A stretch of 64,000 bases of DNA from Pyrrhoderma lamaoense (lineage: Eukaryota; Basidiomycota; Agaricomycetes; Hymenochaetales; Hymenochaetaceae): contig NBAZ01000011.1 of assembly GCA_002794735.1 (NCBI GenBank), positions 434,001 to 498,000 on the forward strand. The letters are read 5' to 3'. Below are positions 17,301 through 58,762 of this stretch, one piece after another. Position 1 is the stretch's first letter. Each line of letters begins with the position of its first letter. The notes below the pieces were generated by a model. The model had not been told where the DNA came from. It saw only the letters and a program-made list of their open reading frames with translations, and made no database searches. A program made the position numbers and the translations under genes.

Positions 17301-17401
17301 GGAGTGGAAGAGACACTGATAGAGTCTTTCTCATGCTTTTCGTCAGATAAGTCTTTGCGTTCTATGTCAGATGGTAAGTCTGTGAGCGAAGGCAGAGACA
17401 T
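14356..17401 (-). CDS. OPT family oligopeptide transporter (copy 1)
   Basis: Proton-coupled small-peptide transporter of the plasma membrane, with about a dozen exons. It starts MSLPSLTDLPSDIERKDL at 17401 with a Ser/Asp-rich cytosolic tail. The membrane part begins PIMTFRTWFLGLGLS, then FRPQTVFVSQL, GNPHEKLQMADSWFWKWMNPGPF and IKEHVAVTIFSTTAAESALAI, all OPT landmarks (NPGPF and KEH). Later exons give GGLMRTFLVYPTYIVFPN, GNEGLGMFAFCLDWNYVG, EVPAWWYGLIFLVSFAMA and GYLSVGINTSVFTTFCLAVF. The last coding exon reads NPEGNPDYCLRLTA before a TAG at 14356-14358. The usual W-W-G-N near the C-terminus is not seen in this model (PFPLWAL instead), so the last splice junction could be different. It forms a tandem pair with the gene at 19054. 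Confidence 0.9.
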
Positions 17402-29074: not shown

Positions 29075-31192
29075 TTAATCAAATCCTCGACGACCGGTCT
29101 TGGTCTTAACAACAATACCCGCATCGGCGAGCTTATCAACGAGATCTAGAAGTACAAAGTCACAGTTCCGTCTCGCAGCCAAGTCGATAGAGATAGGTAG
29201 GTACTCCGTTACACCAGTGATGTTTGACGTGAACGGGACTTCACCGATGGGAATAGCAACCTCTGGACCACGACTATAAACAGGTAAACGAGTATCGCTA
29301 AACCCGAATGGAACACTGCTCGCTGAAGAGATGTAGGTCTCGCGAGAGGAGTAAACTCCATAGGCGGCACCGTTTGGAGAAGCGAAGATAGTTTCTGAGC
29401 AGGATTCGGATGACTCGGGGAAGACGCTTGTTAGGGCCCAATCTTCAAAGGTTGAACGCCGGGTGAGTTCGTCGTTGTAGCCATCATAACCGCGTTCCTG
29501 CCCGTAGACCCAGCGTTTGAGTACAGCTGGATTGATGTGGGGCGTGCGACCCTCATTTGCAGCTGCATAATCAGCGAAAAGTTGGCTTCCGAGATTGTTC
29601 CATTGGTAAACAGAGATGAGTGTTGCATATGTCTAATTTGTATTTATTGACGATGAGAATTTTGTAGTTGTGCATAAAAATGTGGATTAAAAGACAGACC
29701 TGGTTAAGGTAGGTTGTTGCTGCCTCATTGACCCCCGATGTATTGTTCCATTCCTCCGTAAGTGAAAAGTTTTGAGTCGTAGCACCAAGGAAGTCCGTCA
29801 ACTTGCCCAAGAAAGACTCATAAACTACCTTGGCGTCCTCGTTCGTTAGCGAGTCAAAAGATGACGAACGAAGAACTTTCTTAGGGAAGTAAGGATAAGA
29901 AGTAAGATTCTCGTTTTCGCTATACCAAGCTTTTCCGAATTTTGTGAATAGTTTCGGGTCGCGAGTCATGAAACCCGCAGTATCAAGAACTGCAGAGAGG
30001 GGGATGACTTCGTCTAGAGAGATAGCACCGACGGAAGGACGAATGCCGTATAACAGATTAAGTCCAGCAGGTAGACGCACAGAACCCCCTGTATCAGAGC
30101 CTAAGGATACGTCAACCCATTCGTGTGCACCAGTACTTGATCCAGCGCCAGTTGATGATCCCGAAGGTTCAAAGTAGCCATCGCCACGTAAAGAGAATGA
30201 CGCATGATAATCAACCCAGTCAGCAGTTGCACGGTCTCCGTTGGCAAATTGTACAGTCTTGGTCATGCCAATGACATCTGCACCAAGACTGACAAGGCGG
30301 GACACTGCAGGTCCAGTCTTGTTTCGTGGCCCATATGTTTGATAGAAAGCACGATTTCCGCCACTGGTCTTTAGCCCTTCCAGATGATAGATATCCTTAA
30401 CAGTCACTCGTACACCTGAGAGTGGGTACTTGACGGAGTCTATACCCGTAGCATAAACCTTGGAAGGTGTTCCGATATAAGGTGATGAATCTGTATCACC
30501 TGCAGCAGATACAATAGCGAACGAACCATTCTTGCGAGATACGATTCCCTTGAAAAATGACTGAGTAGAGTCATACCTTAATTTCAAGGGCTTGTATAGA
30601 GCATGCTTGCCGGCAGAAGTTTTAGCAAGGATATATGGACCTGGTGCGATCTATGGGCCTATTAGATATTCCCCTATTACATATACTGTAATTCCATACT
30701 CACATCAAGTTTGGAGAAACGAGCAGCAGTATAATCAACAACTCCAAAATCACCACTTGCAAAAACTTTCTCGACCCCTTGCTTCTTAAGATATGTTGCA
30801 GCAGATGAATCGAGTGTAGCAGTTGAAGAACCGTTGTTAATGATGAGTACAGCTATTTTCGCATTTTTGTGTTTTTAGGATTAGTATATATATACTCGGT
30901 GTATCTGCTCACTTTGTAGGAAAGATTCACTGAAGACATCATCAAAGCTTTTCCATCCCTCTATAGTATTCTGTATGAGATTACCGGTGATAGTCTTTGC
31001 ATCTGTTTTCAAGACAGAGACAGTAACGAGCTCCTTTGAGATAGGTGAATTATCCAAAGTGACTTCTGCTTCTTGTGGAAGATAGTAGTCCTCGCCGCTG
31101 ATACGCAGTGTGCGTGAGATCTCAACGTCTACCCAAGCTCTTGCCGACGCTAAACACAGAAGAAACAGGGATGCGGACGAGATTCCGACCAT
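29075..31192 (-). CDS. Secreted amidase-signature hydrolase with Arp1-like N-terminal domain
   Basis: Hydrolyses an amide bond; the substrate is unknown. Start ATG at 31190-31192 gives a signal peptide, [20 protein letters not shown]. About 150 residues before the amidase core ([16 protein letters not shown]..) resemble the N-terminal domain of fungal proteins annotated scytalone dehydratase-like Arp1. The core has the Ser-cisSer-Lys triad: Lys in [11 protein letters not shown], cis-Ser in [15 protein letters not shown] and the nucleophile in [16 protein letters not shown]. Exons join across introns near 30651-30704, 30853-30912 and 29633-29699. The C-terminus reads [20 protein letters not shown], with stop at 29075-29077. 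All catalytic residues are present, so it is probably active and exported. It converges with the mucin-like gene. Confidence 0.9.
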
Positions 31193-35070: not shown

Positions 35071-37371
35071 CTAGAGGATTTCTAACCATTCCTTACCATA
35101 CTGGAACAATTTACAAGTACTGTAGTGTGTTTGAATTGCATTATCGATGGATCTCTTATCATTTGATGCCACAATTAGCTGTCCGCAACGATAGCAGAAG
35201 TGACTTTAAAATGGTAAAGAAAATCAGCTTAAGCTATCGGTTTTAGAGATGGCGTACCTATTGCATCCTGGGGAGGGGCACTATTTCATAGCTATTAATA
35301 CAAGAAGCTAGCATGATAGGCGTTGCTTACCGTCATGTGGTTACAGCCCTCAGTTTTCTCCGTAGGCGTCCTACAACCAGGACAATGTTTCCATCCCTTT
35401 GTGTTCATAAGCTGCTCGATCTCTTCACTTCCATCACAGGAATGTACAAAACTATTTTCAGATAGTGTATACTCCTGTTGACAATCCTTACACCAAGAAT
35501 ACCCGCAGTTAGGGAAGGGGCAGTGGATTATTTTTGACTTTTGAAACTCTTCTTTGTCAATGAAAGCACTCTGCCCACAGCTAGTTAGCGTTGAAGAAAG
35601 TAGCGTGAGTAAATATGTAAAATGTACTTTGCCAGGGCAACACTCACCGTTTGCAGTCCATTGACACAGAAAACTTAGTCACTTGCAATTCATTGAAAGT
35701 CCTATATGCGCTTTCCGTTATCCCAATTTGGTGTATAAGAGTCTCATCAATTCCTATAACGAGTTGAGATTGGCAAATATAGATAACTTAGAAAACTTAC
35801 TTCCGGATGCAGTATTACCATCCTTATTAGTAGCGCACATAGGACAGGGTATTGGGTATTTCTTTTCATTCAGTTTTGATGTGATATAACCACGAATACA
35901 TTCTCTACAAAATATGTGTTGGCATCCTTGCAACCGAGCGGCATCGTCCAACGGTAGCTGATCAAAACAGATACCACAGTCGAAGGTAGCCTGTTTAACC
36001 TCAAGAAGTTGCTGCATCTGAGCTGCAAGCTGCTTATCTTCATTGTCAAACTCATTCTGCATGAGAAGCGCAAGTTCAAGGTCGCTTATCTTCCTCTTGC
36101 CCTTTGCACTAGTATCTGGGCGGACTTCCTTCTTGAGTGAAGAAGAAAAGCTAGATACTCCTGATCCTATATAGGCCGGAGAAGGACTTCGTCTTGTGGT
36201 TTGTGACTGCAGCCCAGAAGAGTTCTTGCTATTCATAGTCTTTCGTGATTTGCTAGTCTGGCCATAGGAAACAGTTTGAAAGCCTTCTTCTAGTTGCGCT
36301 ATATAGTTCTTGAGCTTTTGTGTTTCATCTTGTATTCCAGTTTTTTCAGCTCTAGCTGCAGTTAGCTGTTCTTCTAATCGTTTATTAGAATCTTGTAGAC
36401 GAACGATTTCAGTTTCCTGATGCTTGTTCTGGGATTCCAATTCTTTCACACGATTTTTCTCTAGTAATAAGGAGCAGTTTGTTTCCCGCATAACAAGAGA
36501 CGCGTCGAAAGCCATTCGCATATCCCTACGAGAACTAACAAAAAAATGACCAGATACATGGCCTAGAAGCTCAGCTTGCCATTGAAGACCGCTGTCAGGT
36601 GCAAAAAGGGACTCATCAACTTTGAAGAGATCTGCTAGATATTGTGCCGCTGATGAGGCAGATTCGCAAAAAATGATCGCGGCACCATTTGGATGTGACG
36701 GCCTAGAGTGGGAGTCGAGTATGACAATGAAGTCCCTCTTCGGGTGGGTGATCTTGAGGCAACTGACGATTTCAGGGGGTCGAGTGATTGCAATTGCACA
36801 TGAACGAGGTTTGTCGTCCTGGGGATAGCAGTAAGAGTCCATTCGTCTGGATGAGATCAGAGATACAATATAATGGGTTTAAACTAAGATCTTACTTTAT
36901 GATATGTTTAAACATCTCTTTCCCTGCTTTCCCAAAGCTAGTATGTACGTGATGTAAAGCTGCATTGTAAAACGGAGTTTTGTGTAACTCGTCTACTTCG
37001 AGGTGTGCGTCAGATGGCCAGAAAGTGGATATAGACATTATTTCCTGCCTAAATTATCAACAGTGTTAGCATATATAATAAATGTGTTGGCTCACGTCTA
37101 GGAACTCTTTCTGTGTCATTCTCGCAGCGAGCGCATCCCCAGTCATTCCGTCAACTTCAAGAGTCAGAATATGCTGTATGAAGTTCATGGATACTAGACC
37201 ACATGCAGATGACGAGAAACCATCTGAGTATTGACTTGTACCTGCGTGAGTGCAAACATAATCTTTGTATGGAATCCCTTCCTTGATGTTTCTCAAAACC
37301 TCTGTATTGGTTGTAGAACCAAATATGTTTGTGACGAGTTTATTCGGTCGTAGCATCATGTCGAAAATCAT
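35071..37371 (-). CDS. RBR-type E3 ubiquitin ligase with N-terminal Cys/Asp-x-His protease-like domain (copy 2)
   Basis: Start MIFDMMLRPNKLVTNIFG at 37371. The first three exons (to about 36520) form a globular domain with CTHAGTSQYSDGFSSSACGL, then FIVILDSHSRPSHPNGAAII and LLGHVSGHFF. A buried Cys in S-A-C-G and a D-S-H later in the chain are what a papain-fold peptidase or deubiquitinase uses. A coiled coil (LLLEKNRVKELESQ..LEEQLTAARAEK) and a Ser-rich linker follow. RING1 is CGICFDQLPLDDAARLQGC, CQHIFCREC, CPMC. The IBR has CPFPNCGYSWCKDC, and RING2 has HCPGCRTPTEKTEGCNHMTC|PSPGCNR|HFCYRC, with the catalytic Cys in NHMTC. The chain ends YGKEWLEIL, stop at 35071-35073. I estimate about 700 residues. 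All RBR ligands are intact. The N-terminal enzyme idea is inference. Confidence 0.88.
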
Positions 37372-38670: not shown

Positions 38671-41600
38671 ATGGCCAACTATCATCAGTCCAATACATTC
38701 GGTGCTATCAATTTTCAAGGCGTCTTCCCTCCCGGAACGAGTGCCTTTGCGCCAACACTTGATACCTCTCACTTAGACGATTACTCGTCTGGTAATATCT
38801 CCAACTACATAGGATACGACGAGTCACACATAACCAGAAAACCTGAAGATGCTTTACTGAACAACACAGATGATGTTTACCTTTCAAACATTGACTCTGA
38901 CTCTGACTCCGACCGAGCCAGTTTCCACTCCGTAGATAATATCGAAGATGAGATTTCCAAGGTCTCAAAGGACCAAAATATGGTGATAGATGAGCCTTCG
39001 GAGCCAGTTCTAAACAAACTACCAACAAGTAACGAAGTAAGTCGTCCTTTCCTTATCAAGGCTCTTGTTTACTAACACCAAGAGAAGGAGGGTTTAACAA
39101 ACCCAAATACCACACCAGGGAACTCGGCTGCAACAATGAGCTCCCACAAAATGTATACTGTCCAACTCAGACCCTCGTCTAAGACTATCGATATATCGAT
39201 GTCTGTAGATTTAGTGGACAAAATTAAGGGAATGTATAGAATCCTTGATATATTGTCCGACACCGGTAGTGGGGGACTAGGTAGTTCAAAAATATAATCT
39301 TGTCAATGACTCGGACTTATAGCTCGTATGAATAGTTGACAAGGTCGTCATAGATCAAGAATCCGTCGGTCGATTCATCAATCATATCCGTCCCGGCGCT
39401 TATAAAGACCTCACGAACATCAACTTCCTAGACATGGATAACCTAGCGATAAAACCTATTGGAGTTTATGGGAGCAAGAGCGAGATAGTTCGACTTCTAC
39501 TTGAATTACAAGTCATCGATCAGCCTATGTATGTTTTTCATGGTTAAATACTATAGTAATGGAGATTTAATTCTTGTCTTGCAGCGCTTCCCTTCTCAAT
39601 ACGACCAATCCCTCGATATCCACCTCTCCTCATCTCCGATCCGGATTGTATGCCCTGATTCCCGGTCGACATTCTTCAGCAGAACGACCTATCTACATCA
39701 TTTTCTGGCCAGACGATGAGACGTGGAACGATGCAGCTGATTCTACTGTACGGCGTAATAGATATACGTTCATGAGGTATTCATACATTCAATCTTAACA
39801 AATAGTATCACTAAGCAAGTACGGATAGATATCTATCAAAAATAACGGATCAGATGATCGCATTGATATCAGAAGAACACGCAAACATGCTTGTTTGGAA
39901 ACAATCTAAAAGCATCGGGGACGACGATGACTCCTTTGTACTTGACGAGGAGGAAGAGGAGACGGATAGGTTGTTTACTTTTGAGGTACACAAAGCAAGC
40001 GAACAAGAGGAAAGTGTCAGTTTTCATGAAGGAATAAATGTGAGAACCACCTTCATAAACGAGAGTTCTGTTTCTAATCTGTTAAAATACAGATAAATGA
40101 CAATCGTATCAAGGATGGAGAGGCTTCAGATCAACTAGCTGTCACTGCTGCACAGCTCACAGTGAGAATGATCGGTGGTGAAACGAGGCAAGCCATTATG
40201 ACTGTAGAATATGAGCACCCAGGTGCTAAGGAAAAGCCTTTCCGGGAGGACTATAATAATCGGTTTCAGCTCATAGGAAAACTGTGAGATTCAAGTACAG
40301 AGCCTATTAATCGAGTATTATTGACACTTTCAATAGCACTGAAAATCATGCAACAATTTGCCTAGGGAGGGATCTCTCATATGATGCGGCCAAACTGCTC
40401 GCATCTACAAAAATAGCCGAACAATATCCAAAACCTTTCAGTTGCTTTTCTAGTCGTGATTCTGCTATCAACGTAGAGATAGAATGTGCGAGGAAGGAGA
40501 ACGCAGATAAAATGAAAGACATTTTAGATGAAATGGCGCCAAAGCTCATATCAGCTCTTGAGGTTTTCCTTGTAGGCAAGATCGTCGAACGATTAGGGTA
40601 AGCAAAATCTATTTTTTATCCTATAGTAAAAATAGGAGATTACTGCTAAAAGTTAGTAAACAACACAGCTTAATCAACGAAGTGGATATATATTTTCATA
40701 TGGGTAAGGATATGCCTTCAAAAGAGAAGAAAGAAGCCAATAAAGGTTAGTGAATGTGTTACATTGTGTACTTAAGTGGGAAGCACTCTGATAACTTCTT
40801 AGACTACATGAGAAACTTATTCAATACTCACAACTCCTTGGAAAGTATGCTAGATAACGAATCAAGAGATGTTCTTCTTTTGGAAACTCGTGACGAGAGT
40901 GCAAAATTCTCAAAGGCCATGCGTGGTATTTATATTTGTCAATACCTTTTCGATAATAACGAAATATCCTTTGAAGATCGCGTTGCTATAAGCCAGTATG
41001 TAAGCTCAAATAACATGAAGGAAGCCTCGAATTATGTGAAATCGAACCCAGTTGCAAAGGGCTCTGTCCTCGATGGTGTCATATCTGTCGGTCAAAGCTT
41101 GCTGAATGTTACATGGCCAAGATGGGGCATTTCAAAAAGTCCTGTGGATCTTGCAAGGGAAGCATGCCGAGCTAAACGTTCCGACAATTTCTTTGCAGAG
41201 GCAAACAAGATAGTCAGTTCCTGGCCCGAGTTAATACCAAATTTCGAGAAGGCGATAGAAGCAGCCTGCGAACACTATGCTAAGGCTGTTACACGTATTA
41301 CAAATAGATTACGACACAGAATACTTGGCATGCATGAAACTCAGCTGAAAGCACTTACCGGGAACCAGGTTGATCAGATCGCAAACGAGAAGAAGCGAGA
41401 GTCACTGTCTCTGCTCTTTGACGAACTTAAAGATTCGGGTGAATCCGACTCGTGAGTAGGGATTTAATTTCATTCAGTACTAGGCTCTAACTGATTCCTC
41501 TAGTGAAAACACCATTATCTTAGAAAAACTGACACTCAAAACGAATACTTATCACAACAGTAGGTTTTAAGAATTTTGCTTATATAATTGAACCTAAAAT

Positions 41601-44600
41601 AATTATTAGCTATCTCTGGGTGTATTACTGGCCGCCGCAGAGTTCGCCCCAGTCCATCCCTAAAGTACACGATTTATCCACTTGAACTCAAGGAGAAGGA
41701 TAGACAACAGCTCAATATCGATGCAACGCATATCCCCAAGCCTGTAATCGCTCCCCACAATGCTTACAATTTCAGGCTACCGTTATCCGCAAGCATCAAG
41801 TAAGTTCCATAGTAGATTTTGAAATCCGCCTGCTGACTGACACTCGATAGGTTTATTAAACTTCTGGGAGATGGTAAATGTCTAGTGGTCATCGAAGGTC
41901 AAAATCACGACCTAGATGTCTATTTGGAAGACTTGAGCAGCTTAGAGGGGGCAATTCGTCACAAACATTGGAAGAAAACGTTCAAACGAGAGAAGACGGG
42001 GGAAGATATTCATCTTGCATATGATGAAAAGACGAAGAAGATTCTCGTATGTGGCATACACAATCAACCAGTGAGTTGCTAATCTATCTTCCGTAACCAT
42101 CACTAACAACTCCTCAGTCTTCAATTCAGCTCTGGGTCTATGCTTTCAACGATAACTACATAACATTACAAGCCGCAGGTAGTTCAATTAACTTAACATC
42201 AAGCTATAGCCAAGGTGTTCCGACACTCTATGATATCCACTTTGTTAGTGGTTGTGATGAGTTTGCTCTAGTCGAGACTTCGGGGCTCGTACGAGTGTTC
42301 TCTACAGTCACTCAGCAGTTCAGACCAGCCATCCTGCAACTACCCTCCACACCTCACTGCTCATTCACAACTCCTGAAGGATCATGCCTCGGTGTCACCT
42401 GTTGCGACGACCGAGGAATGAGAGTTATCTTCTATCACTGGGCATCTCTCAGCTCGCACCCTGGCTTCTCGTATTCACTTCCTGGTAATGTGTTGAAGAA
42501 CCAAATTCCCATCATATCCGCATTCGATGATAAGAAGAATGTCCATCTAATCTGGCTGGATGAATCCAACCATTCATGTCAATCAATTGGTCTAAGTATC
42601 ACTCAACAAATTACAGAATTCCAGTTCTGCGAAAAGGGGTCCAAAGCACTCGCAAAAGACGCGCAATCTCACACAAAGATTAATTCTTTGATTGATTGTC
42701 ACTCTGAAGTCTGGACTCGTTTTCCAGTCATACCAGCAATCCAACGTCGGGCCGTTACATCCAGTGAACTTCGGAAGAGCCCTTCCATTATGTTTACAAC
42801 AAGCAAGCCATCGGACTTCCCCTTCCCTGAGTACTTCCAGAATATGATTCAGGAACTGGAGAGATCAACAAAGAAACCTGCCACAGCTGTTTTAAACCAA
42901 ATCCAAGTAGCTAACTCAGAGTTCGCAGATACTATTATTTATGCCCAAGGAAACATTGACGTATCAACTTTCAAAGCTGGAGAATGGATGGTTGACATCT
43001 TCTGTTTGATTCCAATACAGATTGCTCTTGCTCGAGACAACCGATTTATACCGATTAAGGATGGTGTGTGGTCACCAAAATTCGAGAAATCGTTACTTGG
43101 GATGGACGTTGGAACTGTTTCTGACAGTCTCTCATTTGGGTGGTACGAAAGTATTTTCCGATCATACATGTCTTCTAAGGTATATTACTCCTTTTCTTGC
43201 TACTGATAGTCCGTAACTGATACTCTTATAGCCGGTGAAGGTGATATCGTCTATGGGTAGGCTATCTTCGTGTGGAATATAGTATAAGTACCCCGAACTA
43301 ACGTATCAATAGGAGAACAATCTGTCGGGAAGAGTTTTGCGCTGAATCACCTTGCAGATACGTCCTTTGCTGGATCGGCGATGAGGACGACTGAAGGAGT
43401 ATGGATGTCGGTGACGCCAACAGACACAGATCTCGTTGTCGTACTTGACTTTGAGGGTACGCTTCTCTATCACATAAAATAAACCTATACTTACGCAACT
43501 ATAGGGGTACACAGTATCGAGAGATCTGCTCAAGAGGACACGTTACTTGTTCTATTCAATGCAGCTATCTCGAACCTTGTAAGCGGTCAGATCGTTACTT
43601 TTGTGAGAAAAATCTAATAGCAATGTCTAGGTTTTATTTCGAAATAACTTTGCATTATCTCGGGACATTGCGGATCTCTTCCAGAGTTTCCAGGCATCTT
43701 CATCGATTCTTGATCCAGAATCGAATCCTTCTTTATTCCAGTCTACGTTGGTTATCATCATTAAGGTATGCGAGTCAATAGATGGGACTCGGAAGTTTGA
43801 AAGGCTAAGTACAAGCTTAGGACGTTGTGGACTCAGATCGAATTGAGATTACGAAAGAGTAAGTTGCTACAAGTCGAATACAAAATTCGATAACTTAATT
43901 TGACGATGTTCCCTTCGTATAGATTTAAATTGAAGCTTCATAAGATTGTGCAAGAGGAACAGGCTGCAAACTTCATCTCTCGATTATACAGAGGGCGGGT
44001 GGACATTATACCGTGGCCGGTTATTGAGAGTCGACAGTTCTATACATTGTTTTCAACTCTCAATAAGAAACATCTTATAAAACAATCGCTTACTCCCGAG
44101 AGAGGTAGTACCTTCCTTCAGAAGCTCAAAATGCTCATGGCTAAGCTCAAGGTGATGTACCTTCCCCTTTCCTCAACTATTAACATTTATCGTATCAAAT
44201 ATGTAGACAAATGACTGGGGTTCTATGACACGCGAGTACTGCTGTTCTATGCCCGCAGCAATCCACTGAAGAATCTGTTTTTAGAAAATATATCAACTCA
44301 TAGAGCACAGTTTATGCTCTCATTTTTGAATCAGGCGCTTTCTACAGGTTTCTCAGAGAGAAGTCCCGATGATGAACCTCTGAGGGTGAATCCATAATCC
44401 TTTCACTTTAATAGTTATACTCACTTCGAATTTTGCAGGACTTGGAGACTGGAATCATTCTTCCATCAGAAGACACTGACGCAGTGTTTTATATTGAGAG
44501 TATGGCGGATCAACAGGGGGACAAAGAAAGTGCATTGAGAGACCTTATACACCGTTGGCCCGAGTATAAACTCAGAGGAGAGGAATCAGTTCAGTCACGG

Positions 44601-47600
44601 ACAACTCGGTTGTGCAACTTCCTGAATGAGCTCGCCGATAAGCGTATCTCTCATGTCCAGACATGGATTAACGCCAATCTATCCCAGTTTCAAGAGAGCA
44701 ATGCTGCAATCGAAGAGCTCCGTCGCGCTATGGAAACCAAAACAATAGAGATTAAACGAGGAATATCTATCTGCAAAGTGCAGTGTGAGGACTGTCATCT
44801 TCTATGTCTTCATCCTCCTTTCCATAGCGGTAGACATGATTGTGAGACGGATCATACATGTCACTCCCCTTGTCAATTTTTTGAGGAACATTATGAAAGA
44901 AGATCATGCGGTCTACAGTACGTTCCAGTACTCTCATATTTCCGTAAGAAGCTACTGATGAGTTTCATCGCAGAGCCGGACATGAAGGGAAACATATGTG
45001 AGCAAAAGCATTCAATGAAAGTGCCCAAGCTTACCATATACAACGTGTAGTTGCGATCCATCAATGCATCTATGTGGGAAGGAATGTGCACGTAATGCGA
45101 ACAAGGGATGCCAAGGGAGATGTACAAAGGTAGCCAGTCACTCTGACGATGAACATCTATGCTCTGCCCGCCGACACTTTTGTGGAAAGGTAAGCTCGTT
45201 TTTGATTGCAAAAGTCTTTTTTCAAAGCTTGCTTCTTTATCAGCCTTGTGATCTGAATGATGTCAAACTTCACGATGGCTCAATTTACACCTGCCGGGGA
45301 AGTTGCTCTTACTTATGGTGCGTAACGCGTACAATACGTCTTAATTGAAAATATATGCATTCTGAAGCAAACCAGGGACGAAGCACATGATCTGCATGCG
45401 TGTGATGTTACTTCTTGTCCTATAACGTGTCAACTATGTGGTCGTTTATGCGAGTCTATTGAGCATCTACACGGTTTAAATGAAAGAGAGGTTCATTTGT
45501 GCGGGTAAGCTCATGGTAACTGTTGCGATGCAATCATGTTATATACAAACGGATTCTAGACAGGAGCATATGTGCAAGGAGAAATGTCAGAGTATCGGTG
45601 TATGCGAGATCGACACTGTTCCACACTCAATACAGGAGACTTTTAATGGAGTTCATGATCAATTTCAATACACAAAGGTGAGTTTGTGGATGATTCATTA
45701 CTCAGTCAAAGTACTCACATCAATCCGTAACCAGTATAGTCAAGGTAACTCAAATGCATGAAACCCGTAATGCACATTAAAGTTCTTTTTCAAGATACCA
45801 AGCGTCTTCCATGCGCGATTCCTCTTCCGTCTGGATGTCTTCAGCATACTGGTCCTCATGTTCATTCGATTGCAGCCGATGTCTTTCACTATTGCGATAA
45901 GCGGTATGTTTATTTTTCTTTTCTCCTGTTGAAAATATTGATTTATTTTCTAGATGCGAGAGCTGTGGATACGTATGTACGCTGCCTCAAGGTGAGTAGC
46001 AGCAAGACGTAGCATCAATATACAGTTTTAGTTGACTTCTACTACAGGCCACCCACAGCCAGAGCATTCAACAAACCACGGGTCAATGTCTCAGACTCGT
46101 TGGGCAATCGAAGGGCAGAATGAGAGTATCGAAGTTGATAGCCACAAGTTTGGGTCTAACGACGATGGAGCACCGATGCTTTGTAACTTAGTATGCAGCA
46201 ATATGGGTCGACATGTTCATATCGACTACTGTCGTTCACAAGATCCGAATGTCTGTAACACAGCTGAAACAGTGCATATTACGACAAGAATGGATCCAAA
46301 TCCAGATCAGCCTAAGGATTGGGTCACACATAATCTACATTGGAGACGTTTAGGATTCAAAGGTCGCGATTTGACACTACTAATAAGAATAACATCTAAT
46401 GGGGTTCTTTAGATCCATATTCAAGAGAGGAGCGTGCAAACTTTGCTAAATGGTGCGGAACAGTTGCTGCTCATAAAATTGTATCTTTATGAACTGACGT
46501 TGTTATCATGCTACTTCAGTGACGCGATGTGTTGTGGTAAGATTTTCCATGTAGCATATTTTACCAACTCAACTAATGATTAAACTAGGCCCTGAACATA
46601 AGGATCCTCCTGTTCCATCATACTGCAACTTGCCTCATTTTCACCCACCGGCTCCATTGTCCCAAGCACCTGCGAATGGACATGTTTCTAATGATGGGCA
46701 TGTTTTCATATGTAAGAATCCGGCCGTTCTCAATCAAGCATTCCACGTGTATGTCCATTTACTAGCACGTATTCAGTATGCTTTTACTCAATGATGAAAT
46801 CAGGATATTTGTTGTTGATAGGTAGCTTTGCTATGATCAAATAGTATAACTAAGGATAACAGTTCCTCCATAGGTCGGGGTCTATGAGTTCCACAGACCG
46901 ATATCCCCTTCCAAATCTTCCTGCAAGTCCTCGAATAAGCCAGGTTGCAAATAATCGACTTGGAGCAGTGTATACGGCATTATGCTCCTTTTGGATAGCT
47001 CGACATGCAGCAACGAATCAAGGGGCTGCTCAGAATAGGCGCGATGCGTATTCTATGATTCTTTTTAATAGCAGCACCGCCGAGATATATGCGAACGATT
47101 TCAATAGTACTCCAGACCAGTTGATTGATCCTCTTTTACAACAGCGCTCTGGCGGTGGTACGAACTTCAATAACGCGCTTGTTAAAGCTAATGAAGTGAT
47201 GGAACGGCATTGGAGTACTGAGAGGTTAGTCTCTGTGCCGACAATATCTCAACTCCACTTCAACCTAATATACTCGCCTTATTAGATCCCCGATCATTAT
47301 ATTTCTTTCTGATGGTGAATGTTCTATGACAGACGGAAAGATGTATGATCTATGTAGGAATGCAATTCGACTAGGGTAAGAATCTCTGTTTTGTTCTCTT
47401 ACTTTTCAGATATGTATAACCTTGTGATAGTCGAGGACTATCTTTTCATGCTGTATCATTTGGACCAGATGGTTCATCGACATGGTTACGACGCATGGTA
47501 CAGATTGCGAAAGAGGTGCAAGCTACGGCACCTCGTGATCCACTTTTACCAGCAACCGCAATTGTCGAATCGTCATATGCTGTTGCTCTTGATTCAGTAA

Positions 47601-47737
47601 GTTTACTTAAAACATGTTATTCAGAGCTATATCTGAGCATCTGATATATATGCATCTCACTGTAGGTCCGACTGGCTGAGACATTCTTGGGTATTGCTGA
47701 GTCTTTGCGGAAGACACGTGGTGGATTGATTAGATGA
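38671..47737 (+). CDS. Giant GTPase / zinc-cluster / VWA protein (copy 1, intact P-loop)
   Basis: Roughly 30 exons and, by my estimate, more than 2,000 residues. An acidic Ser-rich start (38671-39036) is followed by a conserved N-terminal module with GVYGSKSEIVRLL and FWPDDETWNDAA (39703 on), a helical part (40754-41455) and a beta-rich part (about 41620-42900). A G domain then has Walker A GEQSVGKS (43256-43335, split by a phase-1 intron), RTTEGVWMSV as a switch-like segment, VVVLDFEG as G3, and IIKDVVD as a G4 candidate. Next is EELRRAMETKTIEIKRG, then a Cys/His-rich stretch (44770-46420: CKVQCEDCHLLC, HSGRHDC and many more). A VWA domain follows, with MIDAS D-R-S-G-S, GGGTNF and LSDGE. The stop is at 47735-47737. 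The G domain order resembles the GBP/very-large-inducible GTPase group. I know of no named fungal gene with this layout. Confidence 0.82.
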
Positions 47738-47902
47738 TAGTAATCAATAATTTTGAGATTTTTTCGTGTATTCCATAGTGTATCATCGGTGAACAGTGTA
47801 TTATATCTAACAGATGTCTTTATGTACATGCGTAACAGATCCTGGATATGGCTCTCGTTGTCCGTTAAGACAGTATATTATGAGTACAACGGAGAACGTC
47901 AT
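47738..47902. other. 3' flank of giant gene 1
   Basis: Short AT-rich stretch between the stop codon and the solo LTR; nothing else seen. Confidence 0.5.
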
Positions 47903-48643
47903 TGTAGGACCAGTTAAGTGTTTGGCCGGACGTAGTGCATTTATAATGCACTTTCTAACTCGTCCGGGAAGTCCATTGCTACCACTCGGCCGCGCGCCTG
48001 GTCCATCTCTCACTATTTAGCTTCACTTTCTACTCTTACTCGAGGATAGGGTTCGTTTATATTGCCCCCTCATTTCGATAGCTTAAACCCTTCATCCAGT
48101 GGCGTATAGCCGCCTGGACGCCATGCTTTCCTTATTATCTACCCTTTATCTCGTATTTTTCTATACAAGCTTCCAGACTTGAGGCCGTAGTGGGGGAGAA
48201 AAACTCTCGGCCAACCCTCAGTTAATTACTTCTGTCCAACCGATCTATCTACCCTGCATCCCCCCCCCCCCGAAGTACCTCTCTGATTGTTGCATGTACT
48301 CTTTATCTACTACTGTGATGCTTTAACAGGCTTCCCGGACGCGCTTGTAACGCTCTAACCGTACTGCAAGTCGTCCGGGCGGACTGAAATACATACACTT
48401 TTATCTCAAACTATAGTCGAGGCTCTGTTCTATACGCTTCTACTACTTTATTGGTCTGTAAAGTCTCAGCTCGCCCCAAGGTATCTATCTCATTCTATGC
48501 TCCGGTCGAAGTCGAGTTACTCGCTTTTAAGCCCTCACATCTGAACCAGAGCATCGTGTCTGGTGTAGGCAGACTCTGAATCCCAAGTCCTCGCCACTAA
48601 ATACGACTAAAAGGTCCAACCCTGACCTAAAGTTAAGATTTCA
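47903..48643 (+). repeat. Solo LTR, diverged relative of the element at 8641
   Basis: 741 bp starting TGTAGGACC and ending TTTCA, alignable end to end with the 8641 LTR, including the C run, but with many substitutions and small gaps (I judge roughly 80-90 percent identity). No internal region or second LTR adjoins it, so it is what remains after LTR-LTR recombination. Flanks share at most two bases, so any target duplication has decayed. It lies between the tandem giant genes, in their orientation. Confidence 0.9.
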
Positions 48644-49711
48644 ATGGCATTGCTACCGTTGATACTTAGCTCAACAATGATATATCAATAGTTTTATGAT
48701 TCACAACATCTATTCTATGGCCATTATAGATAATGGGATCAACTGATGCCATGATACAATGTTCAAGTGTACTGTCGCAATCGGAATTTGCTCGATTTCT
48801 TGTCAAAATGAATCAGCACTGCATCTTGTGCGGCAAGGCTTCGATATAGAGAGGCTGTTAGATAACAGTCAGTAAATGTACTTGAACGTACCATAGTGCA
48901 TTCATGAATTCTCCAGCGATAAAAGTTTATAATTAACTAATGGTAAGTTATCAATCTGCTTTCCTTCCTCATCTTCACCTTTGGATCCGAAACATAAATG
49001 AATTCACTTATGGAGTCAGAGGACCAAGATAAATGTAATTTTAGAGCTCAGGATCTCAAGATTCAGATGTACCGCAGTAGCCCCTATCAACCGAATAGTT
49101 GTAGAAGTAATTTAGCGCTCATCATTATCACTATGAAAGGATATCTAAACTTATAACATTGAACAGGATTTGAGCGGGCGTCTATATCAGTAGGACACGC
49201 TTCCAATCCACATTTTGGGGTCACATTTACTTGTACACTCGTCCTACACGAGGTGATGAAGAAGTCGTGCAGGGCTCTGGGAAACGAAAAGCAATGCAGT
49301 TTATAATCAAATAGCATCAGTAAGATAGTAAACGATTCTATTAATGATAATTATCATGCCGTATAAGCGCTTAATCTAAAAATAATGTGAGATACAAAGG
49401 AATTTGATCAGCTGAGTTATCGACAGCTGAAACAGAGCTTACAGTTTCCCATTTTATTTAATCTAAGATGGTCTGGTTCTACATTAGCTTCCAAAACCTT
49501 GTATTGCGAAGGCGTCTACTTCTCAAAGCTTTCAATAATAATACTACTGTAAAGCCATATGGCTGATTGACTATGGCCACAGCGAACCACCGCTGATGGC
49601 AGGAAATTGGGTTTCCTTTAGTCTTCTGATTTAAGCCGATCTATAAGATGTCTATAAAACCGGGCCATTGTGTATAATGATCCAAAGTATACGTGTCCCC
49701 TCAATATCAAT
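48644..49711. other. Promoter region of giant gene 2
   Basis: 1.07 kb, no gene. TATAAAAC at about 49653-49660 lies about 52 bp before the ATG at 49712 and may be the core promoter. Open frame 49087-49317 shows no family text. Confidence 0.5.
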
Positions 49712-52700
49712 ATGAGTCCTTTCTCCCCTATTCAAGTAACGAATATGAATACGGCTACGAATCACTCTACTCAAAATGGGAGTATTTCGGAAAATTCTCC
49801 CTCAGTACCTCAGGTTCCCTGCATTCGACCTTCACTATCGCTAGTTTCCCCAGTACAAAGAATACATCCTTCCTTTGAATGTGATGGCTATATCTTAGAT
49901 GACACCTCTGACGTTGGCTCTGATATCTATCATTCAACGGATGAGGGTACTAACACACCGAATGCCCTATTGCACTTGGAATCTGATGAAGATGAACAAG
50001 GGTCATTGGTATCGAGGCTTACTGACTATCCGCACCATCTTGGCGTAATATAATTATTTAGTAGACTATCATCCTGCTTGCTAATTCTCGGGATTCACAG
50101 GTACTACAAGCTCATCCTGGAAGTATCACTTCTCATGAGAACTATACAAACGAGGTCCCACCCAGGTTGATCAAACGCTTGTGTTCATCCAAAACTATTG
50201 CTGACTTGACTTAATTGATAGGTTTGATGGAATGTTCAAACTGTTAAATATTAATATGGAGACTGGAAGTGGTGATTTAGGTATGTTTTCGATTCGTGCT
50301 TGAAGTAGTTCCTATGTCTTAGTGATTATAGACCAGGCGTCTCTTGGCCAGTTTATCAATTATATCAGTCCCGGAGCATTCGAAAGTATCTCAGACATTA
50401 ATATACAGGATATGGAGCGCACTATGGTGAAGCCTGTTGGAGTTTATGGAAGTAAAAGCGAAATTATCCGTTTTTTAACCAGAATTGGTTCGATTAAACT
50501 ATATAGGTCTATTCTTCGGAAATAATTATTGGCTCCTTGTACTGATAGTTTTCTAGTGATTCCTCCATACAATTACCTACACTACCACAGCTCACACCTT
50601 TAGATATGACTCCTGGATTATATGCACTCGCTCGGAAGGGGTCGTCGTCTCGGGAAGTTCGTCTCTTCATCATCTTCTGGCCAGATGATGAAACCTGGGA
50701 TGATGGCGCTGACATCACTAATCGGGAGAGCCGACATATATTTATCAGGTTCTCTCAAATATTAGAGCTTTTAGCTGTTACTCAGTGCTGACTGAAGTAA
50801 TGGGTAGCTACTTGTATCGAATAACGAATCATGTTATTGCGCTCATCTCAACTGAGCACGAGAAGAATCTAGTTTGGGAAGAAGATGTAGTAGAAGAACA
50901 ATACGATAAACCGTTCTCTTTGGTGGTCCAGGAAGTCATTAACCAGGATATAAATATTATTCTCCAGGATGGTATAAAGGTATACAAATCTCTTACACGG
51001 TTTAGCTATGGAAATTTACAAACATTGGCATACGAACTATGTAGCACTTTGATAATCATATCAAAGGGCAAGATATACCGATACGACTAATTGGTGGAGA
51101 GAGCAAGCAAGGTCTTCTAACCACGCTACGTAATCCTCCAAAAAAAGTAAAAAGGAACTTTAGGGATAAGACACAATTCGCAGAGATCCTGTATGTTTTT
51201 CATGTACTTTCAATAATAATTAAATTTACATAACCTTTTCAGTTCTCAAGAGAATTCTATGCACGCTATCATATGTCTCGATAGAGACCTTTCATATGAT
51301 GCGATCCTATATCTTGAAGGATCTGTCGTTAAAAGGGGACTAGAGATAGTGTTTTCAAATTTCTTACGACGCGATAAGTCTATTACCGATACTTTAGAGA
51401 AGGATAAAGAAATAAATGCAAAGCGCATTCTTAGCTATTTGGAAGAAACAAGGACCAAACTTTCAGATGCTTTCGTGCTTTTGCTTGTAAATAAAGCAGT
51501 CGAGAAAAATACGTGAGTACTTTGGACTAGATCTCAAAATTAAAGATATCATTCTGATACCCTGCGACTGATGTTGTAAAATAATCAAGTCTTCTTGAAA
51601 AATCGCGGCTATATGAACATCTAGAGATACCGACGCCATCGCCTTCTGATGAAAGTATACATAAAAGTAAGCAAATGCAATTATTAGTTCATGTCCTTAC
51701 TATATAATACTTCACAGGCTTTCTCGATGGGCTATGTGAGAGTCACACTTCTCTGAGGGCTTTGTTAGAGAAACACCCAAAATCTATTTTCTGCCCGAGT
51801 CTGTATAGTGAAAGCTCGAGGATCTCAAGGGCACTACGTTCTGTATTCATCTGCAAACATCTCTTCGAGAACAACGATTTGAATCATGTGGAGCGTGAAA
51901 GCATCTCCAGACTTGTACGCGAACGTATGGGTCTCGAAACCCATGACTCGACACTGGTTCCTCACAGTACAAACTCTACATTATCTATTATTAATGAAAT
52001 TAATTATGATTCCACAAATTTCAAGAACGTTTTCACCTCTCCATTGGTGGGTGTGCTATTTGGGCCAGTAGATGAAGCAAGAGTTGCTTCTCGAGCCTTG
52101 AAGCTTACTGAACTTCTCAATAAAGAGAATGCAGAGCGTATGGAAGATAGCTGGCCCGAGCTACAACCTAATATTGAAGCCGCGACCAATGCAGCTATCG
52201 AGCATTACTCGAAAACTATCAAAGAATATGTTGAGGTGCTGTGTAATGAAGTACTCGACTCTATGGAGCAGAACTGCCGGTCTGCAATTAGGGAGAAGCT
52301 CAATGAAGATCATGCGAGAAGGAAAAAGGAATCTCTCAGAGAGTTCTTTGATGAACTAGAGTGTGACCATGGCTCTAGTCATGTTTCGTACGTGACATGC
52401 ATATGTTTATTCTCGTTCTTGAAATATCTAATATCACGCTGTTACCTATAGCGAGAGTGCTACATTGTTAAAGTGTTTGACAGTAAATAAGTCAAACATT
52501 GAAGGTAATTAGCACCTCGTTTATAACTGATTATATATGCACCTAGAATCAAGCTAAAGATGATCTCAGGCTTTTTCATCAGTCATAAGGCTAGCTGTAT
52601 AAAGTATGAAATACACAGACTAGAGTTAGCCGAAGGAGATGTGCTACGACCCGTATCAGCACCCGAGCAGAGTGCCGAGCCAGATATAGAAGCAAACTCA

Positions 52701-55700
52701 CGCGCCGCTTGTTATCATTTTAAGCTTCCAGAAGCGGCCACTATAAAGTGCGTTTAAGTACAAAACTTGTGACGTCATGTTCATCCTCCAATAAAAACTG
52801 TACTACACAGGCTTATCAGGCTCTTGGGAGACGGGAAATGTCTGGTCGTCATTGAAAACCACGATCTCGATGTATACCTAGAGGCCCTTGACGATATAAA
52901 AGGCGCAATTTCTCACAAGCGATATAAAAAGTGTTTCAAGAGAAGAAAGCTAGGGGACGATATCCGCCTCGCATATGATGAAAAAACTAGGAAATTCCTT
53001 ATATGCGGCGTGAAAAAACAACCGGTGCGCAGATATCCTTATTTACTGAATGTAAAAATAACACTCGAGTAGCCTGTCATACAAATTCGGGCCTATAGAT
53101 TTACTGATGAATACAGGTCTTTAAAAAAGACGGATAGATTCGACTTGGCATCAGGCTATGCTCAGGGTGTTCCGCCACTCTGTGACGCTCACTTGATCAG
53201 TGGTTGCGATGAGATCGCTCTTGTAGGTACATCGGGAATGGTAAGGGTGGTATCGGTAGGCACTCAACAATTTAGGTTTGTGAAAGGTTTATCTCTTGTG
53301 TTAGTCCTGTTCCTATTCTAAGAAGCTACTTAGGCCCGCTGTTCTACATCTCCCGCCTTCACCGAATATCTCATTCACCACTCCCGATGGATCATACCTT
53401 GGTGTTGTTTATCTCGGTAATGATAAAGCGAAAGTCATCTTCCATCATTTGGCAACTCTTGGTTCACACTCTAGCCTTTCGTATGCACAGCATCACAATG
53501 TCATGATGAGCCAGACCCCTATCATATCTACACTTGGTGATAAGAGGAATATTCACTTACTATGGTTGGATACATCTTCGCATTCTTGTATCTCCACCAA
53601 ACTAGTTATTCCAGAGCGGATAACTAGTTTACAGTTGCGCAAGAGACAAGAGATATTGTCAAAATCTGCTCATACTCCGACATTAAATAACTCATTGATT
53701 GATTGCCATCCTGAGGTATGGAGTCGTTCTTTGGCTAACTTTGGGAGAAAGCAGAAGAACACCTCTATTATATTTACAACAACTGAACCATCGTGCTTCC
53801 CATTTCATAATTACTTCCAGAATATGATTCAAGAATTAGAAAGGTCAACAAAGAAATCTCGAGCTACTATGATGAACGAAACTACTGTAACACATGCGTT
53901 GTTTGAGGACATGATTGGTAGTCTTCAAGGAAGCGAAGAAGCATCAACACTCAAAGCTGGTGAATGGATTGTTGATATCCTTTGTCTAGTACCGATACAG
54001 ATTGCTCTTGCACGGGACAATCAATTCATACCAATTAAGGATGGTGTATTTTCTCCAGATCTCGAGAAATCGTTATCCGAAATGGACGTTGAGACAATTG
54101 CCGGTAATCTCTCATTTGGGTGGTATGAGAGTATTTTCAGATCATATATATCCTCAAAGGTAAGCTCATCTTTCCCCCTTATTGTACTCACCGTATTAAC
54201 GGACATACAGAATGTAAAAGTGATCTCGATCATGAGTAAGATATATAAATTTACACTTGATGAAACTACGTCTGGGTCAAAAGCTCATAAGTATGACAGG
54301 GAAACGTTCTAGTGAGGATGTCTTCTCTCTGGATTGCCTTGTCAGTGTGCCGCTCGTTGGGTTAGCGAGAAGAGTATATGAAGGGGTATGGATGTCTGTC
54401 AAACCACAAAATGATAGTCTCGTTGTAGTATTGGATTTCGAGGGTAACTTTTTTTGCACTTCATAGAATTGACGAGTTCGTCTAACATTTAATCAGGGTT
54501 AGGTGATAATACGACATTTAGTCAAGATAATATGATGATTAGTTTATTTTCAATAGCAATGTCTAACATCGTGAGTTTTATGGTGTATACATGTTTTGAA
54601 ACATTTCTCAGTACGGTTTAGGTATTTACCCCTGCAATTCTTTGTTAAGGGAGAACATTACCGATCTTTTCCAATGTCTCCAAAAGACATCATCTATAAT
54701 CGACCCCTGCCGCAATCCCACTCTCTTTCAATGTTCTTTGATCCTTGCTCTAAAAGTATGAAATTATGTTTATGAAACTAGGAATGAGAGTTAGCTAAAC
54801 AGAGGTTTAGGATTGGGCCAATCCGGACCATAATGGAGTGAAAAAAAAGCGAGTGCTGAATCTATCACAACATGTCTGCTGTGTATTGATGGTAATGATG
54901 CTAGAATACGAGAGGAGCTTGGGAAAATCGTTGAAGAGGAAGGTTCCGCGAACTTCCTTACACGACTCTTCAAAAATAGAGTAGATATCGTACCTTGGCC
55001 GCAATCCAATGCTTCACTTATCGATATGCTTGAAAATCACCTTAGGAGCTTAAACTCGCATGAATCAGGTAGAGATTTTGTTGCAAAGATGAAGATGCTT
55101 CTTGCAAAGATTAGAGTATGTTCTCACCTTATCTACGCTTATCTCATATACACGAGAATAAATTATAGAACAACGACTGGCGGCCTATATCACGTTAGTG
55201 CAGTAGTGCTAACTGTACGATAAAATGACAATTCAACTCTGTTTTTAGATAATATATCGGTACAAAAGTCTCACTACATCCTTCGTTCACTCAACGGTTT
55301 TTTGAGCATGGGTCTTCCTAGTAAAATTTCTCTTAATCAAGCTTACAAAGTAGAGTAATTTATTTCTTTCAAAATTTCATCGCCTCACTTTGATTATTAT
55401 TCAGGAAGCAAAAGAGGCCCCTATTACTTACTTGGATGACAACGATGCTATATTCTATATTGAGAACGAAGGGGATTACCAAGTGAAGAAAGAAGACGCG
55501 TTGAAAGCTCTCATTCGGCGATGGCCAGAGAATAACCTCAGGGGAAAGATATCGGATCAGATTTGGACGACTCAACTATGTAACTATCTGAATGAGCTTG
55601 CTGACAAGCGTATCTCTCATGTCCAATCATGGATTAAGGATAATTTATCCCAATTTCAAGCGAGTGGTACTGTAGTTGAGGAACTGCGTCGCGCTATGGA

Positions 55701-58700
55701 AACTAAAATAATAGAGATTAAACGAGGAATATCTATCTGTAAAGTGCAATGTGAGGACTGTCATCTTCTATGTCTTCATCCTCCTTTCCATAGCGGTAGA
55801 CACGACTGTGATACCGATCACACATGTCAAGCACTCTGTGAGTGTATCGGACATGACATACCATTGTCGTGTGATCTAATGTGAGTGTATCAATATCAAT
55901 GGCTAATGGCTAATAGTAACTGATATGTATGCTTAGCTCTGGGCACGATGGTGATCACATGTAAGTACATCTTTAATCATGAGTGATAGAACAATACCTA
56001 ACTATATATAGCTGTGCTTCATCTGTGCACTTATGCGGTAAACCATGTACTTTGAGTGCAAAAAAAGGATGCCAAAATAAGTGTATGAAGGTACGGACTT
56101 TATCCCCTTTTTCTTATATAACATTAGTAACCCATAATGGAATAAGACGAAGGACCATTCTGACAGCGATCATCTATGTTCTGCTCGTCATTTCTGCGGC
56201 AAGGTACGCACTTCATCACATTTTTTATGCACGCTCTCAGTCCATATTTTCTCCCACCAGCCATGCAGCTTGAAAAACGCTCAACTCCACGACGGCTCTA
56301 CATTTACTTGTAATGAATTCTGCATTCTCCCATGGTGGGTATATCCCAAACTTGATAGATTATCTGTGGTTTTGATGCATCCTAGGAACGAAGCCCATGA
56401 TCAACACAAGTGTAGTTCCGTATCATGTACTATCAAATGTGATCTATGTGACGATACTTGTATATTTGAAAATCACTTGCACGGTTTGAAAGGGATTGTC
56501 CGTCATTTATGCGGGTTTGTTTCTCATTGTCATACTATCTTCTCCTTTAGTTGACATTTGCTATCTGAAGGAATCGGCATGTTTGCAGCTCTCCCTGCCA
56601 AAGCCATGGTGTCTGTGAGATAGGAGCGGTTTCACACTCACCTGAGACTTTTAAAGGAGTATTTGAGCAATTCAAATATACGAAGGTGAGAATATTCTAA
56701 AGCTTTGACGACTAATGACTTTATTAATAATTCAATTTTTACCGAAATCAGTATTCACAAAGTATGCAGACCCACCCCTTCTGCCTCAAGTCAATAGCCT
56801 TTCTCATAGCAATTCTTGTGACAGCTTCAAAGCGACTGAAATGTGCAAAACATATACCTGCGGGACGTCTTCAGCATGATGGCCCCCATATTCACTCAAC
56901 GTTACCCGATATAACACATTCTTGTAACAAAAGGTTTATTCTCTGTCACAATACAACTCAATTGTGTCATACTGATACAAACCTTAGCTGTGATAACTGT
57001 GGATACTTATGCACACTACCTTATGGTGAGTGATCTGAAATTTGATGACAGTTTAGATAGTCTTATCTTCAAAAAAACGGAAGGGCATGCGAATGAGCAT
57101 TCTACATCTCATGGCTCAATGTTCAAAACTAAATGGGCCATTGAGGGACGAATAATAGCATACAAATTGGCAACCACAAATTCGGGTCTAGCGATAATGG
57201 TGGTCCGTTGCTCTGTAGTATGATCTGTAGAAGTTTGGATCGTCATGTGCACATTGACTACTGTCAGGAAAACTCTCAGATTTGTAGTGGTCCTGAAAGC
57301 TCTCACATTATGAAAAGAATGGAACCAGATCCACAGAAAGCAAAAGATTGGATTACTCATAATCTGTACTGGAAGCGTCAAGGGTTCCAAGGTACTAAAA
57401 TATTGTGAACGCAAATTAAACTTACATTTAAACCGACCTACTGTTTTATCAGATCCTTATTCCAAGGAGGAACGTGAAAATTTCACTAAGTGGTACGCCA
57501 AGTTCTGTAAAGTCTTTGTAACTCCTTGACTGATACTGGAGTTCTTTAGCGATGCACTCTGTCCTGGTCCGTAGCTTACCAATATCTCACTCGTTGTAGT
57601 CGTAATATTTCGTACAGACCCAATGCATGAACCTCATTCTCCATCATACTGCGATTTGACCTTGTTTCATCGCCCATGTACTCCAACAAAAGGCGTTTCA
57701 GCCAATGGTTATGTCTCGAACGATGGCCATTCTTTTTTGTGCAAGATGCCAGAAAGCAACCCCCGTATCATATGTAAGTGCTATTTCGAGTTTAATTTTC
57801 TTGCTACTGGTGCTCTTCTGATCCCCGCTGCATAGTATACTCGTTATAGATAGGTTTGGTTTTTCTACTTGAGTTCTGCGAGCTGTCAATCTGATACAGT
57901 ATCTTCATTAAAAAATTCAGATCAGGTTCAATGTCTAATACAGATAAGGCGCCACCACCAGGCTCTCCATTGATACTTCAATCCGAAAATAATAGGCTTG
58001 GATCAGTCTATTCAGCAGTCTACGAATTTATGAAGTCTAGAAATATGGCCTGTACATGCGACACAGTTTCTATAATCCTTTTTAGTCATTCTGCCATTGA
58101 GGTAGATAGAAATGGGACTGACAATACTCCAGATCAAATTCTTAACTGTCTTCTACGTTTCAAGCCAGATGGAGGCACGGATTTCAATCAAGCGCTTATT
58201 CTAACTAAAGCTCTCATGCTGAAGTATTGGAGCCCTGAAAGGTAAAATACCGGTTTTTACTTTATCATCAGTTAAGCTTACCTCATCCTATTTGTCTTTC
58301 CTTTTTTCTAATACAAAGGCCACCGGTTGTTATCTTCCTTTCTGATGGTGAGAGCGAGATGGATGATACCATTATGCGCGATCTTTGTCAAAGTGCTTTG
58401 CAACGAGGGTATAGGTTGTTGATTGTTTATTCTTATAACTGAACCACGCTAACCGACAAGAACCCTGACGAATAGACATCCATTATCTTTTCATGCCGTA
58501 TCCTTTGGTTTAGATGCTTATTCTTATCACTTGAAGCGTATGGCTTGTATTGCACAGGAGGTGCAAGATGGGAGTGGTGAAGGACAGCTATCACCGTTGA
58601 GCACGAGTGTAGACTCATCGTATACTGACGCTCTCGACTCGGTACTTCTTATCCAATCATCTCCTATGGACCTCTTCTAACCTTCTTTAATAGGTTCATC

Positions 58701-58762
58701 TTAGAGATGCTTTCTTGAATGTTTCCAACTCACTCAGAAGAACACGTGGAGGACTGATTTGA
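49712..58762 (+). CDS. Giant GTPase-like / zinc-cluster / VWA protein (copy 2, Walker A lost)
   Basis: Colinear paralogue of the gene at 38671. ATG at 49712 (MSPFSPIQ); the frame is open upstream but has no ATG. It has KPVGVYGSKSEIIRFL, FWPDDETWDDGA (50675 on), a helical part (51720-52390) and a beta-rich part (52830-53750). The conserved YFQNMIQELERSTKK and FGWYESIFRSY lead into the G domain. At the P-loop (54300-54322, same phase-1 intron) the text is RKRSSEDV in place of GEQSVGKS, though YEGVWMSV and VVVLDFEG remain. The zinc region (55740-57405) keeps CKVQCEDCHLLC and HSGRHDC. VWA keeps MIDAS D-R-S-G-S-M, DGGTDF and LSDGE. It ends RTRGGLI, stop 58760-58762. The frame appears open throughout with sensible splice sites, so I call it a gene with a pseudo-GTPase domain, not a pseudogene. 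Confidence 0.8.

Follow-up and report, generated by a model that had tools for sequence, protein, structure and literature searches.

The 64-kb window analysed here (positions 434,001 to 498,000 of contig NBAZ01000011.1, forward strand, GenBank assembly GCA_002794735.1) comes from Pyrrhoderma lamaoense (Basidiomycota, Agaricomycetes), whose assembled genome comprises 30.65 Mb in 72 contigs. It carries two tandem, colinear and intron-rich genes on the + strand, A and B, which span about 9 kb each and can be aligned with each other nearly end to end by stop-to-stop reading and paralogue comparison. All coordinates are positions within the window (Table 1), and the exon models of both genes are computational. 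Protein-to-genome alignment with a profile of 13 relatives reads through gene A without stop or frameshift, and 2,168 amino acids (39205-47734), distributed over 38 exons, match the family. With the same profile, gene B is recovered in 40 exons with a single frameshift at approximately 57149; in addition, it has a doubtful splice at approximately 57774-57900, where simple splice modelling gives no in-frame connection for the exon bearing the first piece (DxSxS) of the metal ion-dependent adhesion site (MIDAS). A preliminary description made from the letters of this DNA had placed two colinear 9-kb genes here, which is confirmed by the spliced models and the paralogue alignment, as are the motifs GVYGSKSEI, FWPDDETW and LDFEG common to A and B. 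It had also treated each block as a single gene, in agreement with the closest database relatives: all 120 of those examined (the best 120 of 552 matches to A at E ≤ 1e-3) are single predicted proteins of 1944-2600 amino acids, 117 of them having at least 2139. The domain order is N-terminal module, hypervariable region, beta-propeller, G domain, stalk, zinc array and VWA domain; the hypervariable region, the propeller and the G-domain likeness of the N-terminal module had been overlooked in the preliminary description.

Table 1. Features of genes A and B in the 64-kb window
Feature	Position	Strand	Details
Gene A	38671..47737	+	Spliced model; ATG at 38671; ~39 exons; introns mostly 45-75 nt; ~2,330 amino acids; intact
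A: N-terminal alpha/beta module (GVYGSKSEI, FWPDDETW)	39205..39898	+	Predicted fold, of relatives only
A: remaining N-terminal part and hypervariable region	39899..41644	+	Core residues ~331-650, from ~40455
A: beta-propeller (WD40-like)	41674..42597	+	By homology to the modelled relative P0003
A: G domain	43125..44049	+	G1 GEQSVGKS ~43312-43335; G2 RTTEGVW; G3 LDFEG; G4 IIIKD
A: stalk region, G domain to zinc array	44050..44765	+	Helical in predicted model
A: zinc array	44766..46743	+	82 Cys/His, 70 conserved in at least 90% of 120 relatives
A: VWA domain with MIDAS and conserved C-terminal tail (RKTRGGLIR)	46744..47734	+	Pfam and alignment
Gene B	49712..58762	+	Spliced model, start at 49712; ~40 exons; diverged tandem paralogue of A
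B: site of lost P-loop	54299..54322	+	RKRSSEDV replacing GEQSVGKS
B: zinc array	55732..57770	+	Bounds approximate; 69 of 70 conserved Cys/His kept
B: most of VWA domain	57900..58759	+	

The best 120 matches are 40-60% identical to A, and 102 of them align to 98-100% of the query and the other 18 to 64-79%. The named proteins among them come from Agaricomycetes, Schizophyllum commune included. The closest named relative among the matches listed is Pyrrhoderma noxium PNOK_0440200 (P0001), with 60% identity over 100% of the query. A second search, for which a relative's G, zinc and VWA parts served as the query under a length window that left out full-length proteins, gave 308 matches, the best 120 of which include proteins from Glomeromycotina, Endogone, Jimgerdemannia and the chytrid Rhizoclosmatium at 34-40% identity. 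A profile of the N-terminal module matches the chytrid protein and gave no match in the checked proteins of Glomeromycotina, Endogone and Jimgerdemannia, some of which are partial. Searches for viral and prokaryotic relatives produced 15 and 49 pattern matches, respectively, none of which passed tblastn, and neither P0003 nor P0215 matched PADLOC or NCBIfam. In the P. lamaoense genome itself, copies were found solely at the A/B locus in a search with P0001, in which counts are lower bounds, and five Phellopilus relatives lie on contigs of equal size (743,496 bp), which we read as multi-copy arrays. Judged by these sequences, A and B are members of an old fungal family of giant, many-intron, single-gene GTPases of the GBP/RHD3/URGCP class. 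The family is apparently unstudied: literature searches, the broadest of which covered top-ranked matches only, found no paper on it, and as far as seen its proteins are known from databases under automatic names only, such as 'VWFA domain-containing protein' and 'Guanylate-binding protein N-terminal domain-containing protein' in Agaricomycetes. Two members, P0142 and P0197, are publicly named 'E3 ubiquitin-protein ligase TRIP12' and 'cytochrome P450 family protein', which appear to be wrong transfers or fusions.

The class assignment comes from the central G domain. The Pfam models GBP, RHD3_GTPase, URGCP_GTPase and VWA_2 matched all 21 scanned members at E ≤ 0.5. The GBP model recognises the G domain of A, as the preliminary description had proposed, at 23.8 bits, and that of P0003 at 24.4 bits, both above the cut-off of 21.1 bits. 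RHD3_GTPase is the best G-domain match in P0217 and, by E-value, in A and P0003; against its cut-off of 42.4 bits, A (31.9) and P0003 (31.6) fall below and P0226 (56.1) above. URGCP_GTPase matched six of six further members beyond the 21 and scored 18.9-42.6 bits, against a cut-off of 55, in the eight proteins with printed bits; PF25683 appears in the database's precomputed list for 16 of the best 120 proteins of the second search. Among solved structures, GBP2 is the best match by sequence (E 9e-4, profile search), with G1 to G3 alignable. All four G motifs are found in A, and pattern matching detected the P-loop in 120, DFEG in 118 and KD in 106 of the best 120 relatives of A. Mean conservation is 0.92-0.95 in five 25-residue windows (1126-1250) and 0.81-0.84 in the next two, and the G part of the predicted model has a predicted local distance difference test (pLDDT) score mostly below 50. 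The G domain is thus placed in the GBP/RHD3/URGCP class by sequence comparison. The earlier suggestion of a fungal arm of the GBP/VLIG superfamily that has zinc and VWA parts of its own therefore stands at the level of the superfamily (Pfam, GBP2) but not, so far, at that of narrow membership in VLIG. The P-loop GEQSVGKS that the two genes were said to share is present in A but reads RKRSSEDV in B, which also has RVYEG for RTTEG.

Downstream of the stalk, the dozens of Cys and His residues noticed earlier proved to be 82 in A (core residues 1496-1935), 70 of which are conserved in at least 90% of the relatives. Ligand retention reaches at least 0.9 of covered sites in 192 of the 201 proteins with enough coverage; the remaining nine comprise P0194, P0183 and P0201 at 0.68-0.76 and six others at 0.84-0.88. 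The array is kept in the distant members as well, with 60 of 61 covered ligands in the chytrid protein, 69 of 70 in Endogone and 70 of 70 in Jimgerdemannia. The unit H-x2-4-H-x-C-x3-4-H-x-C-x3-C occurs three times in A, compared to a mean of 0.002 and a maximum of 2 in 2,000 shuffled sequences. Fingers of the NF-X1/ZNFX1 type were rejected because zf-NF-X1 gave no Pfam match in the 21 members at E ≤ 0.5. The C-terminal VWA domain of A scores 40.2 bits with VWA_2 (cut-off 27) and contains the MIDAS pieces DRSGSM, GGTNF and FLSDG; DxSxS was found by pattern matching in 104 and LSDG in 120 of the 120 relatives. A full MIDAS, previously ascribed to both genes, is clear in A only; in B it hinges on the DxSxS exon described above.

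The N-terminal part was characterised mainly through predicted structures of relatives. The predicted fold of the N-terminal module resembles the G domains of GBP, atlastin and SMG9 and has no nucleotide motifs, and SMG1-8-9 and SMG8-9 entries are among its first 34 structural matches. No sequence homology between this module and the central G domain was detected by hhalign, either with 16 vs 9 sequences or with the deeper set of 152 vs 229 aligned sequences. We regard a G-domain-like fold of the module as moderately supported by these models, and the beta-propeller, predicted in relatives and placed in A by homology, as strongly supported. Between the two lies the most divergent segment: core residues 331-650 had the lowest identity of nine regions in all nine comparisons, which were hand-picked among A, B and the 120 relatives (six within-species paralogue pairs, two Sanghuangporus species, A vs P. 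noxium, and A vs B). The G domain had the highest or tied identity in seven of the nine, the exceptions being Armillaria borealis and A vs B. In a Scleroderma citrinum pair, located on contigs of equal size, identity is 42-62% in five neighbouring 50-column windows of the variable region, 80% in the next window and 85-100% in the rest save one at 71%, a difference that partly looks like a gene-model insertion. Two Phellopilus pairs also have their minimum windows (0.66 and 0.50) in the variable region, with a weaker contrast. We read this region as a putative recognition segment; the alternative is a relaxed linker.

Gene B has diverged in a very uneven manner. G1 and switch I are lost (RKRSSEDV, RVYEGVW), whereas LDFEG and KD remain, and the proportion of near-invariant G-domain residues kept (0.50, 56/114) is the lowest among the 201 proteins with both residue sets covered. 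In the zinc region, by contrast, 0.91 of such residues are kept (127/140; Fisher p 1e-13), and retention elsewhere is 30/48 in the N-terminal part, 32/43 in the propeller, 28/34 in the part preceding the G domain, 23/35 in the stalk and 47/61 in the VWA domain. A and B show saturation at synonymous sites, the proportions of synonymous (pS) and nonsynonymous (pN) differences being 0.76 and 0.33, respectively. pS dips to 0.51-0.70 from the propeller to G1 and more sharply, to 0.39-0.40, at profile residues 1458-1549, which correspond to approximately 44630-44900 in A and 55600-55870 in B and cover the end of the stalk and the start of the zinc array. The sharper dip suggests local gene conversion between A and B, which by itself would help to keep residues 1458-1549 alike in the two genes. 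A midpoint-rooted tree places B together with A and P. noxium at a support of 1.00, the order among the three being unresolved (0.26), and gives B a branch length of 1.06 vs 0.25 for A. P0001 keeps its nucleotide site whereas B does not. Degenerate G1 sequences were found in six of the 242 database proteins with G1 covered (P0165, P0179, P0200, P0204, P0237 and P0159); the nucleotide site may have been lost more than once in the family, and some of the altered P-loops are perhaps faulty gene models.

Considering the loss of P-loop and switch I, the retention of 69 of 70 conserved zinc ligands, one frameshift and one doubtful splice, gene B is either a paralogue turned pseudo-GTPase or a relic at an early stage. 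An ordinary decaying pseudogene without any role has nearly an even chance of being the correct description of B. It would account for the frameshift and the unjoined splice, for the long branch, and for the absence of anything nearer than P. noxium, at 43%, among the 28 relatives found with B (its VWA part left out) in a search whose scoring was limited to the 7982 candidates with the most words in common. On the other hand, some 2,100 codons in 40 exons are otherwise open despite saturated synonymous sites, and the decay is concentrated in the G domain and has spared most of the zinc region.

Compared to known large GTPases, the family combines familiar and unfamiliar features. G1, G2 (T-x-G-[IV]-W-M) and G3 (L-D-[TF]-E-G) align with those of GBP and atlastin, whose G domains the N-terminal module also resembles in fold, but the proteins are giant and multidomain, and their P-loop, G-x-Q-S-x-G-K-S, lacks the arginine of atlastin and GBP (GLYRTGKS), which is Arg77 in atlastin according to PMC5473137. 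With VLIG/URGCP/GVIN proteins the family shares URGCP_GTPase matches at E ≤ 0.5, giant size and tandem copies, and differs in that these matches stay below the 55-bit cut-off in the eight proteins with printed bits and that its genes have many introns. The zinc motifs may resemble the C-terminus of VLIG proteins. The giant coding part of vertebrate VLIGs lies in one exon, a trait absent from A with 38 exons in its family-matching part. The likeness to RHD3/SEY1 lies in the best Pfam match of the G domain; to our knowledge, neither RHD3/SEY1 nor VLIG/URGCP/GVIN proteins have a counterpart of the propeller, the zinc array or the VWA domain. CPRas-VWA proteins (PMC2430557) likewise combine a GTPase with a VWA domain and a putative zinc finger and have a scattered distribution and no known function, but their GTPase is of the circularly permuted RAS type, not of the GBP class, and their length is about 840-970 amino acids. 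Fungal MxF proteins are presented in PMC11789081 as uncharacterised large GTPases with gene loss and expansion that are relatives of antiviral proteins; their G domain is of the Mx/dynamin type and they form a different family.

Our joint reading, held tentatively and at somewhat under an even chance, is that these ancient GBP/RHD3/URGCP-class giants are GTP-switched proteins recognising a ligand inside the cell, that A and B act or recently acted as a pair, and that their task is most probably to recognise or contain an invader or a foreign nucleoprotein in a cell-autonomous way. By binding GTP, the central G domain of A would bring about dimerisation, either with the nucleotide-free N-terminal module in cis or between protomers in trans, and joining an empty G domain to an active one in this way might serve as a switch, much as in SMG8-SMG9. 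The propeller and the hypervariable segment would recognise the ligand, the zinc array would provide a rigid scaffold, and the MIDAS of the VWA domain could hold a partner through a metal ion. B, having kept the scaffold and lost the switch, may serve A, or may until recently have served it, as a partner that needs no nucleotide. In animals, large GTPases of the GBP/VLIG class form a main arm of cell-autonomous defence; for the fungal family, a defence role is plausible, with indirect support from tandem copies and a hypervariable segment between close paralogues. A bolder version, possible though doubtful, would make the family a cell-autonomous immune system of fungi that dates back to the divergence of chytrids, Mucoromycota and Basidiomycota. 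In it, a giant sensor with an empty G domain of its own for pairing would be switched by GTP, would carry a scaffold of about 70 invariant zinc ligands and a hypervariable recognition segment diversified in tandem arrays, and would use B as a GTP-free helper. An old fungal family of this class, with a propeller, a very conserved zinc array and a segment diverging between tandem copies, would provide mushrooms and mycorrhizal and wood-decay fungi with a candidate for internal immunity that is open to tests by gene deletion.

A different function for the whole family is rather unlikely if it is that of a housekeeping scaffold of the dynamin superfamily, i.e., a membrane-tethering, endoplasmic reticulum or vesicle factor with a SEY1/RHD3- or atlastin-like G domain whose zinc and VWA parts hold cargo adaptors. 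Such a role would suit the RHD3_GTPase matches of A, P0003 and P0217 and the very high conservation of the G domain, and propellers and VWA domains (of the Sec23/24 type) are common in coat proteins. However, housekeeping genes seldom show multi-copy arrays such as those of Phellopilus, a fast-diverging segment in close paralogues or a pseudo-GTPase copy, and no membrane anchor was noticed, though no search for one was made. Even in that case, a protein of about 2,200 residues with no known function, conserved in its G, zinc and VWA parts all the way from chytrids to mushrooms, would represent a real gap. Less likely still is an RNA or ribosome surveillance factor resembling SMG8-SMG9 or ZNFX1, in which an empty and an active G domain would regulate a bound enzyme and the zinc array would bind RNA or ribonucleoprotein. 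SMG8 has no G motifs and SMG9 binds nucleotide (PMC5473137), an arrangement like that proposed for A, and the structural matches of the N-terminal module point the same way. SMG8 and SMG9 themselves are two separate proteins of an RNA-decay kinase complex. Speaking against this reading, neither they nor NF-X1 fingers were matched by Pfam in the 21 members at E ≤ 0.5, PDB sequences gave no SMG8 or SMG9 match at E ≤ 1 or E ≤ 10, and no RNA-binding domain was recognised in the Pfam scan of the 21 members. An artefact has a virtually negligible probability: although the exon models are computational, single-protein predictions of the same extent exist in many species, the G domain is conserved and the zinc ligands are kept across phyla, and chance motif matches are excluded because of this conservation.

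Several other features were observed in the window. A GC-rich part contains a 583-amino-acid open frame (9851-11599, + strand) with no Pfam match at E ≤ 0.001. Three open reading frames (ORFs) at 15416-21369 on the - strand match OPT oligopeptide transporters and probably represent exons of a transporter gene or of several in tandem. Upstream of gene A, also on the - strand, lie an amidase ORF (29574-30650) and a RING-finger ORF (35757-36878).

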